Origin: an uncultured Gammaproteobacteria bacterium
Lineage (GTDB): Bacteria > Pseudomonadota > Gammaproteobacteria > Pseudomonadales > Pseudohongiellaceae
Length of the DNA: 38,948 bases
NCBI GenBank assembly: GCA_913054495.1
Contig: CAJXIY010000016.1
Span: 1-38,948 of the forward strand
Direction: 5' to 3'
Shown here: piece after piece, positions 1-4,267 of the stretch
Layout of the letters: the number at the start of each line of letters is the position of its first letter
How positions within the stretch are numbered: position 1 is the first letter of the stretch
Position numbers and translations under genes: made by a program
The notes under the pieces: model-generated
Seen by the model: the letters and a program-made list of their open reading frames with translations, nothing else
The model's database searches: none
What the model was told of the DNA's origin: nothing

Positions 1-182
1 ACAGGATTATTTCGGTTGACTGCACCGCTATTAACCGGACAATAGGCCATCTGTTTCACGATTGAGGCAACTCCCAATAAGCGGGATTTGGGGCGAAAGC
101 TGTCAGGGCAAGAAGGCAAGCTTAGACTTTCGTTATTTGGCGGTTTGGACAATAAGAGTTTACATTAAGGGTGGAGTTGAAC

Positions 183-545
183 ATGAAAAAATTAATGAGC
201 GGTCTGTTAGTGCTTTCCTTGGCTACTTTGGTTGGTTGTGCTGCGGGTGGGCCTCCTCCCGCCGTAGGTGTATGGGGCGTTGAGATGAATACCCCCCTGG
301 GCGCACTCCCAGCTGTCTTGACACTTAATGAAGATGGCACTGGCACCATGGCAGCCGATGCCCTCGGTGAAGCGCCGATCGATGGCATCGTCTACGATGG
401 CAACATGGTCACATTCACGGCAGAAGTCGATGCGCAAGGCCAGATCCTGGTGCTGGAATTCAGTGGCACGGTCGAAGGCGATTCAATTGAAGGTGAATTC
501 GACAGTGATTTTGGTGCCTTCGGCGTAACCGGTACTCGCCAGTAA
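183..545 (+). CDS. small exported lipoprotein, unknown function
   Basis: Encodes 120 residues. The N-terminus is a lipoprotein signal peptide: MKK, a hydrophobic stretch, then a lipobox-like VGC at residues 18-20, predicting a lipid-anchored envelope protein. The mature part is acidic and Gly/Thr rich. It has alternating beta-type segments, for example repeated 'GTxxGDSIEGEFDSDFG'-like strands, which suggest a small beta-barrel or beta-sandwich. I do not recognise a family. The ATG at 183 is preferred over the in-frame GTG at 171 because it follows an AAGGGTGGAG ribosome binding site and begins the signal peptide. The gene is followed by a strong terminator at 605-635, so it is probably monocistronic or the last gene of a unit. 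Confidence 0.75.
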   Translation: MKKLMSGLLVLSLATLVGCAAGGPPPAVGVWGVEMNTPLGALPAVLTLNEDGTGTMAADALGEAPIDGIVYDGNMVTFTAEVDAQGQILVLEFSGTVEGDSIEGEFDSDFGAFGVTGTRQ

Positions 546-665: not shown

Positions 666-1805
666 CTACCTATTGGCCTGCTCCTCAATCTCCAGTGGGG
701 CATAGTAGGTCTCGCCTCGACCCTCTTCAGCGGTCCGTCTTGCGCGCCATTCGGGTCCGGCCGATCCGCCTTCCTCGTAGAGCAGGTCCTGGCGCAGATA
801 GTTCCAGCTATCCGGGTCCAGTTCCTGCGCCATGGTCCAGTAATACTCTGCCTTTTCCTCGTTTTCGTGGGTGAAGTAGTGCGTGCCCAACAAGAAGGCT
901 GGCTGCGCTCTTTCTGCGTCCTCTGTGCGCTGGAAAATATGTCCCAGCACCTGGTCCTTATCCCATACGTAGGGGCTATTGGCGCCATTTATTGCCCAAT
1001 CCCGAACGATGGGCGCATATTCATCGGTGCCGAAGCTGCCGTGATTCTTAGCATAAGTGCCTTCGTTAATCCGGACTACTCTGCCTTCTTCGTCGATCCA
1101 GACTCCCGAAGGAACATTCACCAGGTTGTACAGCGCGCTGATGTGATGATTCACATCGATAATCGCCGTATAGCTGACATTGGCCGCGTCGAAGATTGGG
1201 CCGGCTGCCGCTTCGCCACCCGAATCCTGGGCGACGGAGATTATTTCGAAATTGTTAGTCTTGAGTTCTTCGTAGATTGCCTGCCACACGGGCACGTCTA
1301 ATCTACATCCTCACCACGACGCCCAGGTAAGCAGGAGTACCTTCTTACCACGGAAATCAGATAGCTTGACAAGTTTGCCGTCGCGATCGGCAAGTTCGAA
1401 ATCGGGCGCTACACCACCTTTAAGAAAAGGTGTTCGCTCCAGGGGCATGACACCAAAGCTCCAGATGCCATCTTCGTAATCGGTGACGTGGGCCTGCTGC
1501 AATTTGTCTGCGAGGACCGTCACATTGAACCAGTCCTGACCCGAGCGCCGCACAAACATCTCGCTATCCCGATCCTGTAGCACTGGAATGCAGAGCGCAT
1601 CGAGACAGGCGCCCTCGGGCTTGAGGACGAAATCATTGATTCGCGTTAGATCTTCCGGAGCTACCCATAAATCGGTTGCATCCGGGAGAGTATTCGCCAC
1701 CTCGATGACTCTCTCGTTATAGAGCACCGTCGCGCCCTGGGCGCCGACGATACCGCTAATCAAGAGACCAGCAACGAGGAAGCCGAGAATTTTTAACTTT
1801 TTCAT
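666..1805 (-). CDS. probable selenoprotein, TlpA/ResA-like thioredoxin-fold oxidoreductase (UGA decoded as Sec)
   Basis: Read through a single in-frame TGA (1311-1313), the gene encodes 379 residues. Residues 1-22 form a signal peptide, followed by about 105 residues of unassigned N-terminal domain. From about residue 131 there is a redoxin/TlpA domain (APDFELADRDGK, LSDFRGKKVLLLTWASW). The UGA is codon 165, directly after WASW, where TlpA-type proteins carry the first Cys of their CGPC motif. The next residues are G-C-R-L-D-V-P-V-W-Q, then the usual thioredoxin-fold continuation, a NVPSGVWID segment (cis-Pro loop) and a C-terminal helical extension with TPR-like spacing. The motif is therefore W-Sec-G-Cys-R, with one residue between the redox partners instead of two. 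A SECIS-like hairpin follows the UGA. The alternative is a nonsense-split pseudogene, but reading frame and family similarity are intact on both sides. Predicted role: periplasmic thiol-disulfide or peroxide chemistry. No SelA/B/C/D gene lies in the window. Confidence 0.8.
1272..1306 (-). promoter_or_regulatory. SECIS-like hairpin just downstream of the in-frame UGA
   Basis: On the minus-strand RNA, a perfect 7-bp lower stem GUAGAUU / AAUCUAC (1300-1306 with 1272-1278) starts 4 nt after the UGA. Above an internal loop is a 4-bp upper stem UGCC / GGCA (1291-1294 with 1282-1285), closing a 5-nt apical loop CGUGU. The apical loop begins 20 nt after the UGA and has G as its second base. This agrees with what is known of bacterial SECIS elements: a hairpin inside the coding sequence, an apical loop roughly 16-37 nt from the UGA, and a G near the start of the loop. 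Confidence 0.7.
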
Positions 1806-1885: not shown

Positions 1886-2434
1886 TTAGATGACATTTCG
1901 GCGAAGGTTGTCAATTACGGATTGCAGGTTCTGCTGCGCATTTGGGCTATTGGGGTGGACCGCAATCAGATCCTCGAAGGCTTGTTTGGCCTTGCCCAGT
2001 TCCTCGCGCTGGATATAGACCAGACCCAATCCAGACAGGGCGCCGAAGTGCCTCGGTTCCAACGACAGGACCTTCTCAATATCGGCGATAGAGGCGTCGT
2101 GGTTGCCAACCATGTAGTAAAGGGTTGCGCGCTGATTCCAGGCCTCGGCGTAATCGGGGAAGTTCTCTATGATGCGGTCGTATATTAGCAGGGCCTCCGA
2201 ATACATCTGGCCATTCATCCGTGCGGAGCCCATTTGCATCAACTCTACAACGGTGGAGTTAGTGTGTTGCAGCCAGATACTCCAGATTCGATTTTCTGTG
2301 ATTCGAATTACCTGGCCATCGTCCGTCTGTTTCAGGGTGACAAAGAGTTCATCCAGACGGGAATCGGTCTGGTCGGTCCATCCCACCGAGGGAGTCAGAA
2401 GAAAACATGAAAGCAGGATTTGAAGCAGGCGCAT
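1886..2434 (-). CDS. exported TPR-repeat protein
   Basis: Encodes 182 residues with an N-terminal signal peptide (about residues 1-20, cleavage after VGWT or nearby). Three tandem TPR units follow from about residue 68: GSARMNGQMYSEALLIYDRI, AWNQRATLYYMVGNHDASIA and ALSGLGLVYIQREELGKAKQ. They show the usual Trp/Leu/Tyr, Gly/Ala and Pro (ENFPDYAEAW, LSLEPRHFGA) positions. TPRs are protein-protein interaction scaffolds, so this is a probable periplasmic partner protein, with no enzymatic motif. It lies 80 nt upstream of the probable selenoprotein gene on the same strand, and the two could be cotranscribed. The function is otherwise unknown. Confidence 0.8.
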   Translation of the reverse strand: MRLLQILLSCFLLTPSVGWTDQTDSRLDELFVTLKQTDDGQVIRITENRIWSIWLQHTNSTVVELMQMGSARMNGQMYSEALLIYDRIIENFPDYAEAWNQRATLYYMVGNHDASIADIEKVLSLEPRHFGALSGLGLVYIQREELGKAKQAFEDLIAVHPNSPNAQQNLQSVIDNLRRNVI

Positions 2435-2647: not shown

Positions 2648-4267
2648 TCAGTAACCTGCGGCGGATGCCTTCTGCCAGTCCTCGGCGTATCGATCGGGAA
2701 TCGAGTCCGTGAGTAGCTGGTTTTCGATCAGCGGTTGATAGATCTGATCGAAATTTTTCACGCTGCCCTCGTGGCGACTCAGAAGATCCGTCGGGCTGAG
2801 AGCATCCGGGTTAGAAAAGCCCATGGCGCCGCACAGCTCCAGGAATGCATGCACGGTAGCTTGGTGAAACTTATGGACACGGATGGCTTTTTGGGGAACA
2901 TCTATCGCCCTGGCACGGGCCGGGTTCTGGGTGGCGACGCCGGTGGGGCAGCGATTGGTATTACAACTTTTTGCCTGCACACAACCCAGGGCCATCATCA
3001 TCGATCTTGCGGCATTAACCGTGTCCGCACCGACGATAATTTTTTCCAACATATCGAATCCGGTTGAAGTATGTCCGGCACTGATGATCTTGATCTGCTG
3101 GCGCAGGCCTGCGCCTGTTAGCACCTGGTGGATGTAGTAGGTCGCCTCCAGACACGGAGTGCCCAGGCGATTCGAAAATTCCACCGGGGCTGCGCCGGTA
3201 CCGCCTTCGGCGCCATCGATAGTAATAAAGTCCGGCAGGATTTCGGTATCGAGCATGGCCTTGACGATAGCCATGAATTCGGATTTTTTGCCGAGACACA
3301 GTTTGAATCCTACCGGTTTGCCTTCGCTGAGCTCTCTCAGTCTCTGCACGAATTCCAGCAAGCCCTTCGGGGAATTGAATTCCGGATGACTCGGCGGCGA
3401 CAACACCGTCTCCCCGGCAGGGACCATACGAATTGCCGCGATTTCCTCGCTTACCTTGGCGCCGGGTAACACGCCGCCGTGAGAGGGTTTGGCCCCCTGG
3501 GAAAGTTTAATCTCGATCATTTTCACCACATCGAGACCGGCACGCTCCGCAAATGCACTGTCATCGAATCTGCCGTGAGGATTGCGGCAGCCGAAGTACC
3601 CGGTTCCAATCTGCCAGATGATATCGCCCCCATGTTCCAGATGATGCCTGCTGATGCCACCTTCACCGGTGTTGTGGGCGAAGCCACCGAGTTTGGCGCC
3701 TTTATTCAGGGCCGCTATCGCCGTTGAGCTCAGCGCTCCAAAACTCAATGCGGATATATTGAGTCGGGATGCACTATAGCTTCGCCTGCAGGCAGGCCCG
3801 CCGAATTTGACCCTGACATGCTCCTCGGCAACTTCGCGGGTATTGATTGAATGCGCCAAAGACCTGTAACCCTCGGCGAGAATATCTTGTTCTGTACCAA
3901 AAGGTAAGGTATCGCTCGCGCCTTTCGCACGCCGATAGATGAGGCTTCTACGTTCTCGGCTAAAAGGACGCTCCTCAATATTGTTGGCAATGAAATATTG
4001 CTGTATTTCGGGACGAATATACTCAAGCAGATAGCGAATATTGGCGAGAACCGGATAATTCCTCCGCAAATTACTCGCGCTAAAGAACAGCTCGTAAGCT
4101 CCCACCAGAACCCAGGCGAGAAGCACAAGAAAGACCGTGAGCTGTAAAGGCGCGCCAAGGATTGCCAGAATCGAGACTGCGCCGTCTATGCTGCCCCGTA
4201 ACCAGACTAGGCTAAGAGGCATGAAGATGAGAGCGATAGCCCAGTATAGTCTTACCACGGGAGTCAT
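2648..4267 (-). CDS. membrane-anchored FMN-binding glutamate synthase family protein
   Basis: Encodes 539 residues. Two hydrophobic segments (about residues 8-24 and 36-62) precede a domain like the FMN/synthase domain of GltB. Visible motifs are the NISALSFGALS start of the barrel, KLGGFAHNTGEGGIS, the glycine-rich ITIDGAEGGTGAAP loop, and a Cys-rich GCVQAKSCNTNRCPTGVAT segment matching the 3Fe-4S ligands of glutamate synthase. The glutaminase (GATase II) domain and the C-terminal GXGXG repeat domain of full GltB are absent. This is the stand-alone YerD-like subfamily, whose substrate is not known to me. The start is supported by GAGAGG 7-8 nt upstream of the ATG. It is on the same strand as the TPR gene but separated from it by 213 nt. 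Confidence 0.85.
   Translation of the reverse strand: MTPVVRLYWAIALIFMPLSLVWLRGSIDGAVSILAILGAPLQLTVFLVLLAWVLVGAYELFFSASNLRRNYPVLANIRYLLEYIRPEIQQYFIANNIEERPFSRERRSLIYRRAKGASDTLPFGTEQDILAEGYRSLAHSINTREVAEEHVRVKFGGPACRRSYSASRLNISALSFGALSSTAIAALNKGAKLGGFAHNTGEGGISRHHLEHGGDIIWQIGTGYFGCRNPHGRFDDSAFAERAGLDVVKMIEIKLSQGAKPSHGGVLPGAKVSEEIAAIRMVPAGETVLSPPSHPEFNSPKGLLEFVQRLRELSEGKPVGFKLCLGKKSEFMAIVKAMLDTEILPDFITIDGAEGGTGAAPVEFSNRLGTPCLEATYYIHQVLTGAGLRQQIKIISAGHTSTGFDMLEKIIVGADTVNAARSMMMALGCVQAKSCNTNRCPTGVATQNPARARAIDVPQKAIRVHKFHQATVHAFLELCGAMGFSNPDALSPTDLLSRHEGSVKNFDQIYQPLIENQLLTDSIPDRYAEDWQKASAAGY

Follow-up and report, generated by a model that had tools for sequence, protein, structure and literature searches.

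A probable UGC-containing ResA/TlpA-like selenoprotein from an uncultured gammaproteobacterium and its conserved SECIS-type hairpin

We analyzed a stretch of 38,948 nucleotides from the genome of an uncultured gammaproteobacterium (the window). Near one end of the window, on the minus strand, is a gene that very probably encodes a genuine selenoprotein: UGA codon 165 would be read as selenocysteine (Sec), and the product is probably an exported thiol-disulfide oxidoreductase that resembles ResA and TlpA (our rough probability for this reading is 0.88). The recoding of UGA is nearly as certain as computational evidence allows, and the fold and the conserved residues are computationally supported as well. 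Export, activity, the direction in which electrons flow, the part played by Cys67 and Cys72, and the nature of the substrate are inferred. The family that the protein belongs to is already catalogued, so no new kind of system is opened here.

The gene, its in-frame TGA, and its homologues

The initial annotation described a gene at 666-1805 with TGA as codon 165. This was correct except for the strand, which is minus; we rejected the plus-strand reading of the region, which has several stops in frame 1 and no coding frame. On the minus strand, the gene has 379 codons with a single TGA, a terminal stop, and no frameshift (Table 1), and the one TGA joins the two halves in the same frame, as had been stated. 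The codons around the active site (TGG GCG TCG TGG TGA GGA TGT AGA) read WASW-U-G-C-R, which is the W-Sec-G-Cys-R site with one residue between U and C that was originally proposed. The protein thus contains a WAxxUGC motif (W161 A162 S163 W164 U165 G166 C167).

Table 1. Features of the selenoprotein gene, with positions in the window
Feature	Position	Strand	Basis or remark
Selenoprotein gene, 379 codons plus stop, TGA 165 as selenocysteine	666..1805	-	Frame, Pfam, homologues
Signal-peptide-like N terminus, residues 1-22	1740..1805	-	Judged by eye only; modelled with low confidence
N-terminal, mainly beta domain, residues 23-118	1452..1739	-	pLDDT 83-95 per ten-residue block
Cys67-x4-Cys72 pair	1590..1607	-	Invariant in 26/26 aligned proteins
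ResA/TlpA-like thioredoxin-fold domain, residues 121-250, N-V-P at 230-232	1056..1445	-	Sequence and model
Sec codon TGA, residue 165	1311..1313	-	TGA in 25/26 and TGC in 1/26 homologous loci covering the residue
U-G-C redox motif, Sec165-Gly166-Cys167	1305..1313	-	Invariant in 26/26 aligned proteins (Sec counted as Cys)
SECIS-type hairpin core UGCC-CGUGU-GGCA, loop starting 20 nt past UGA, G at loop position 2	1282..1294	-	
Predicted lower SECIS stem	1272..1306	-	Much weaker conservation across the family
C-terminal helical region, TPR-like, residues 263-362	720..1019	-	Model

Ordinary gene calling splits this probable redox enzyme in two, and the gene is a clean example of the problem. The half before the TGA is an ORF of 164 amino acids (1311-1805) and the half after it is an ORF of 214 amino acids (666-1310), which is listed as 209 amino acids because the ORF tool starts at a GTG. 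The fused protein matches AhpC-TSA from Pfam with 58 bits across residues 132-244, which span the TGA (the cut-off is 26 bits), and it matches Redoxin with 53.2 bits. Separately, the two halves match AhpC-TSA in register with 28.3 and 18.9 bits, and the lower score is below Pfam's cut-off.

If UGA were generally recoded in this organism (as tryptophan, for instance), or were read through without selenium, then the frame would also be open past the TGA, as it is. A non-overlapping scan of the window found 14 frames that are joined by a TGA and have 60 codons or more to either side of it. Only in the selenoprotein frame do both halves exceed 150 codons (172 and 214); in each of the other 13, one half or both are short, while the TGA of the selenoprotein lies at a redox position. 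Together with the Sec machinery in this genome, and with the lack of an above-cut-off selA in any of the three genomes with Cys forms (see below), this makes general recoding or selenium-free readthrough extremely improbable.

A scan of our genome collection yielded 28 homologous loci, of which 26 cover residue 165 (L033 and L035 do not). The initial annotation suggested checking what homologues have at this position, and they have TGA or a cysteine codon: 25 have TGA and one (L021) has TGC. The homologues are labelled as Gammaproteobacteria/Pseudomonadales, Hydrogenedentota, Planctomycetota, Chloroflexota, Acetobacteraceae, and Actinomycetota, among others, and the identity of their best segments ranges from 30% to 97%. 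Among 58 relatives of the window's genome, 17 (the window's own genome included) have a long match with E < 1e-100 and one internal TGA each. (Extra TAA or TAG codons were counted in three of the 17, and these are the terminal stops.) Across the class, only 2 of 369 genomes besides the window's own contain the family at E ≤ 1e-40, so the UGC family is patchy within the class, with the proviso that divergent members may score below this limit. Of 396 genomes from the phylum to which the Actinomycetota locus L031 belongs, 21 have a match. Their active sites have TGA in 17 cases and TGC in two (L092 and L098), and no active site is visible in the other two (L091 and L094). The three Cys forms keep the one-residue spacing (C-G-C) and are useful natural controls for the exchange of Sec and Cys.

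The SECIS-type hairpin

To the initial annotation we can add a strongly supported SECIS-type hairpin that is common to several phyla. We compared 45-nt stretches from the active sites of 68 of 72 loci; the other four (L033, L035, L091, and L094) lack the motif. As a condition of the comparison, W-Q, W-R, or W-D had to stand nine residues past the Sec. This rule sets part of the 3' stem equally for TGA and TGC forms, and it did not eliminate any locus with the motif. Several loci are one gene that was fetched twice, and merging identical stretches left 52, of which 49 have TGA and three have TGC.

All 49 of the distinct TGA stretches form the four core pairs (20-32, 21-31, 22-30, and 23-29, with wobble allowed). 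All 49 also have a five-base loop whose second base is G and whose next base is G or U (G25, G/U26). The loops are CGTGT (34 stretches), CGGGT (8), GGTCT (4), AGGTT (2), and AGTTT (1). If the pairing partner is slid by 1 to 3 bases, then pairing drops to 0-8 of the 49. The pairs and the loop rule together are found at just 3 of the 1,248 TGA triplets in the window (both strands). A looser rule, which accepts any nearby Watson-Crick hairpin of 4 bp whose loop follows the G rule, fits 44 of the 49 TGA stretches, one of the three TGC stretches (L092), and 54 of the 1,248 TGAs in the window.

None of the three distinct TGC stretches has all four core pairs, and L098 keeps three of them. This bears on whether codon 165 could be a nonsense mutation, which would make the gene a pseudogene, or a sequencing error for TGC or TGT. 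TGA is one base away from the cysteine codons, and three distinct homologous stretches do have TGC there. Against this, separate assemblies with the labels Gammaproteobacteria, Planctomycetota, Chloroflexota, and Actinomycetota have TGA at this same codon; the codons past the TGA stay conserved; and the complete set of core pairs occurs only in TGA forms. We consider a mutation or a sequencing error to be extremely improbable. The proposal that this is a selenoprotein is instead borne out by several computational lines: the conservation of the TGA, the hairpin, and the sel genes.

The hairpin agrees with a published model of the bacterial SECIS element (bSECIS), which has an apical loop of 3-9 nt, an upper stem of 4-16 bp, a G within the first two positions of the loop, a spacing of 16-37 nt from the UGA, and a minimum free energy (MFE) of at most -7.5 (PMC13188914). 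In the window, the loop has 5 nt, the core stem has 4 bp, the G is at position 2, the spacing is 20 nt, and the 44 nt from the UGA have an MFE of -14.7, which is within the limit of the model. A search against Rfam gave no SECIS match: there were six weak matches below the gathering score, and none of these lie over the hairpin.

Much of the hairpin follows from the sequence of the peptide, so about a third of shuffled sequences also form it. Specifically, 35% of synonymous shuffles form a Watson-Crick hairpin on average, as compared to 32 of 35 actual TGA sequences, and in a divergent subset, 12 of 15 sequences form it, as compared to 5.6 expected. Between roughly one quarter and one half of the synonymous shuffles satisfied a permissive hairpin rule (for 14 sequences), and because shuffles fit this rule so often, we replaced it with the fixed-position test. 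The folding energy of the SECIS region is mildly lower than that of synonymous shuffles (mean z = -0.60 across the 35 TGA sequences, with 10 of 35 under -1). When dinucleotide shuffles were made of the window's sequence only, z ranged from -0.73 to -3.31, varying with the stretch that was folded. Because folding energy gave weak evidence, we relied on the pairing at fixed geometry and on codon conservation.

The test of codon conservation used 15 divergent members (L023 drops out near the TGA because of how its sequence was cut in parsing) and ranked windows of eight codons that had at least 200 codon pairs. Among 244 such windows, codons 169-176, which lie over the hairpin, have the greatest excess of identical synonymous codons. 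Of 385 pairs, 329 are identical, as compared to 168.8 expected, which is an excess of 0.42 per pair. Outside codons 169-176, the best of the listed windows reach 0.15 (codons 159-166) and 0.14 (codons 364-371).

Selenocysteine machinery

If UGA165 encodes Sec, then SelB carrying Sec-tRNA(Sec) would bind the hairpin 20 nt past the UGA and Sec would be inserted. As the initial annotation recommended, we looked for selA, selB, selC, and selD, and all four are present in the window's genome (3.39 Mb; completeness 99.31). The tRNA-Sec (selC) scores 63.7 bits, above Rfam's cut-off of 47, although that cut-off is not very specific (5 of 14 control genomes pass too). ARAGORN also calls a tRNA-Sec, with the anticodon TCA. 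SelA scores 572.7 bits and SelD scores 274.9 bits; one and two of the 14 controls, respectively, are over the cut-offs for these proteins. SelB is split across the ends of two contigs, C143 (5436-6509, plus strand) and C151 (5147-6025, minus strand). The piece on C143 has 305 bits, which is over the cut-off, and the piece on C151 has 85.4 bits, which by itself is under it (2 of 14 controls pass). The two pieces cover positions 2-342 and 329-580 of the profile, with a slight overlap, and the split is probably a break in the assembly instead of a lost gene.

We also asked which genomes with the family have SelA. In a first set, SelA was over the cut-off in 18 of 22 genomes with TGA forms and not in the one genome with a Cys form (L021). 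In a second set, it was over the cut-off in 17 of 18 genomes with TGA forms and in none of three with Cys forms. In both sets, selA was the only machinery gene sought, and the completeness of the Cys-form genomes was not given. The genome of L021 (G068) is common to both sets, and its SelA match has only 24 bits. The first set comprises 23 genomes, with three of the 26 loci left out (L015, L017, and L020). The second set draws on 17 of the 21 matches in the phylum of L031: two genomes were already in the first set (G078 and G079), and two have no active site shown (G499 and G570). Among the relatives, SelA is present in 36 of 58 genomes, many of which have SelA without the selenoprotein gene, and in 15 of the 17 that carry the gene. 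The two exceptions are G017 and G019, and G017 has a tRNA-Sec over the cut-off despite showing no SelA. Altogether, SelA was not found in 4 of 22 (first set), 1 of 18 (second set), and 2 of 17 (relatives) genomes with TGA; incomplete assemblies are a likely, though unproven, explanation. These counts should not be summed, as the sets overlap in genomes: for instance, G039 is in both the relatives and the second set, and L013 and G025 are another overlap.

Protein architecture, activity, and known families

A model of the protein from AlphaFold2, built with 25 aligned members, has a pLDDT of 85.6 and a pTM of 0.85. It agrees with the originally proposed ResA/TlpA-like fold. Foldseek matched the central domain to a chain of ResA (3c71, E = 3.0e-11), and the closest structural matches are effectively ties: 4nmu_A and 3gl3_C (Z = 18.0 each) and 1st9_A (Z = 17.5, rmsd 2.2, 136 residues aligned). 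The best sequence matches in the PDB include 3kcm and chains of ResA (E = 2-3e-15). In the predicted model, the central domain is a TlpA-like thioredoxin fold with a proline at the place of the cis-proline. The domain shares its fold, the position of the first redox residue, and the conserved N-V-P with ResA, TlpA, and CcmG. Unlike those proteins, it does not have a CxxC active site: in U-G-C or C-G-C, there is just one residue between the redox residues, and the protein has extra N- and C-terminal regions.

The C-terminal extension had been noticed in the initial annotation, and it is real; what was missed is an N-terminal domain that is modelled with confidence and contains two cysteines that do not vary. 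The N-terminal domain (residues 23-118) has no match in Pfam, and searches with the whole model barely probe it. When folded by itself and without an alignment, this domain has a pLDDT of 43.9. In the C-terminal region, TPR_2 is found at E = 0.01 in 12 of 26 homologues and not in the window's protein, whose C-terminal half matches TPR_2 with E = 0.064. Eight positions are invariant across the 26 aligned proteins: Cys67, Cys72, residue 165 (Sec or Cys), Gly166, Cys167, Asp217, His220, and Pro232. The Cys67-x4-Cys72 pair is as conserved as the catalytic pair, also in the Cys form L021. (This alignment leaves out the Cys forms L092 and L098.) A second alignment also contains L034, which has a truncated predicted N terminus, and here Cys67 is nearly invariant.

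Is the protein mainly a peroxidase, instead of a disulfide oxidoreductase? The best Pfam domain is AhpC-TSA, and the family was named "Prx-like (UGC-containing)" in 2008 (PMC2398784). Chains of the peroxiredoxin type (PrxQ, BCP, AhpE, and 5enu) align to the model with Z = 14.4-16.0; however, ResA and a DsbE-like chain rank above them (Z = 17-18) and also belong to the top matches by sequence in the PDB. Peroxiredoxins have a TxxC motif, and by inspection, this is absent: W-A-S-W precedes the Sec. Also, the Sec takes the place of the leading Cys in CxxC, another Cys follows two residues later, and the N-V-P motif is present. A primary role as a peroxidase seems less likely to us, but it is a serious alternative.

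For the favored reading, a thiol-disulfide oxidoreductase, we can suggest how the enzyme might work. The 379-residue product, with its N-terminal domain, ResA/TlpA-like domain, and TPR-like helical region, would probably be exported. Sec165 might attack a disulfide (or a sulfenic acid) in a periplasmic substrate, and Cys167 would then resolve the intermediate, giving a Sec165-Cys167 selenenylsulfide. Re-reduction could be by an electron donor in the membrane or by the invariant Cys67/Cys72 pair.

A more speculative idea combines the hairpin with the second cysteine pair. First, the residues after the active site, (L/V)-(P/S)-(V/G)-W-Q, may be kept largely as the spelling of the SECIS hairpin, so that RNA decoding shaped this peptide throughout the family. 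Two of the three Cys forms read L-V-G-W-Q and L-G-A-W-Q, and the third has lost one pair through a changed codon. Also, relative to the commonest pairs, L095 has both bases swapped at 18-34, 19-33, and 21-31 (the swaps at 19-33 and 21-31 are seen in L095 alone). These paired changes replace Leu with Val and Gln with Asp, and the stem is kept. Second, Cys67-x4-Cys72 in the added N-terminal domain might pass electrons to Sec165. We view the two parts together as possible but doubtful. If true, the protein would be a self-contained selenium-thiol relay, unlike ResA and TlpA, and RNA decoding would shape the protein sequence of a whole family. The one-residue spacing of U-G-C and the conserved second cysteine pair are oddities that can be tested biochemically.

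The initial annotation considered the protein to be "undescribed-looking," which we cannot uphold, as the family appears in PMC2398784, in PMC13188914, and in NCBIfam as NF041054. A single Prx-like sequence from the Sargasso Sea with a UXC motif had already been listed (PMC1088965). The 2008 survey of GOS data described "Prx-like (UGC-containing)" proteins with pfam00578 and the motif UGC, with 46 Sec sequences and 855 Cys homologues (PMC2398784). A review from 2026 lists a "UGC-containing TlpA disulfide reductase family protein" and cites PMC2398784 and PMC5029168 for it (PMC13188914). The pfam00578 domain, the U-G-C motif, and the mix of Sec and Cys homologues are shared with our protein; this likeness rests on the descriptions in PMC2398784 and PMC13188914 and not on a comparison of sequences. 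As far as those descriptions go, they mention neither a Cx4C domain at the N terminus nor a TPR-like tail nor a SECIS element. A search of the main text of PMC5029168 with six terms gave no match, and the main text of PMC12013277 does not contain ResA, UGC, thioredoxin, AhpC, or TlpA. Among open-licence papers, we found none on the function of the UGC family, none for "WAxxUGC" or for selenoproteins of Pseudohongiella, and none that combine "redoxin domain-containing" with selenoprotein terms.

By far the best match in NCBIfam is NF041054 (WAxxUGC_long, "ResA-like WAxxUGC motif-containing protein"; E = 2.4e-74), which matches all 26 of the aligned homologues at E ≤ 1e-5. NF041054 describes the same WA-x-x-U-G-C motif and a long form with N- and C-terminal regions past the redox domain. 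Yet the window's protein has just 250.7 bits, as compared to a cut-off of 300. We scored eight members, and five were below the cut-off (the window's protein, L013 at 252.1, L022 at 277.5, L021 at 294.6, and L064 at 222.5) and three were above it (L031 at 542.0, L025 at 571.3, and L026 at 303.8). By inspection, the two highest scorers, from Actinomycetota and Chloroflexota, do not have a signal-peptide-like start, whereas the window's protein does. Given its score, we place the window's protein in a divergent branch within the known UGC-containing TlpA/Prx-like selenoproteins and not in NF041054 itself; this branch escapes the cut-off of a curated NCBI family model.

We compared the gene neighborhoods of the window and 20 other loci, and there was no neighbor in common beyond close relatives and none that points to a substrate. 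Directly upstream of the selenoprotein gene (1886-2434, minus strand) is a gene for a small protein that contains TPR repeats and whose N terminus resembles a signal peptide; it does not cluster with any ORF from the 20 other loci. On the other side, a small ORF with a lipoprotein-like N terminus (171-545, plus strand) is convergent with the selenoprotein gene. Between them, near 600-645, we noticed by eye an inverted repeat between a run of A and a run of T, which looks like a terminator for both genes. Elsewhere in the window's genome (G000), contig C1 contains a second redoxin-like frame with an in-frame TGA (at about 2906-3217 on the plus strand, or 1407-1718 of L068). It reads SADW-U-PYCK, with the TGA at the position of a UxxC motif, and it is probably another selenoprotein.
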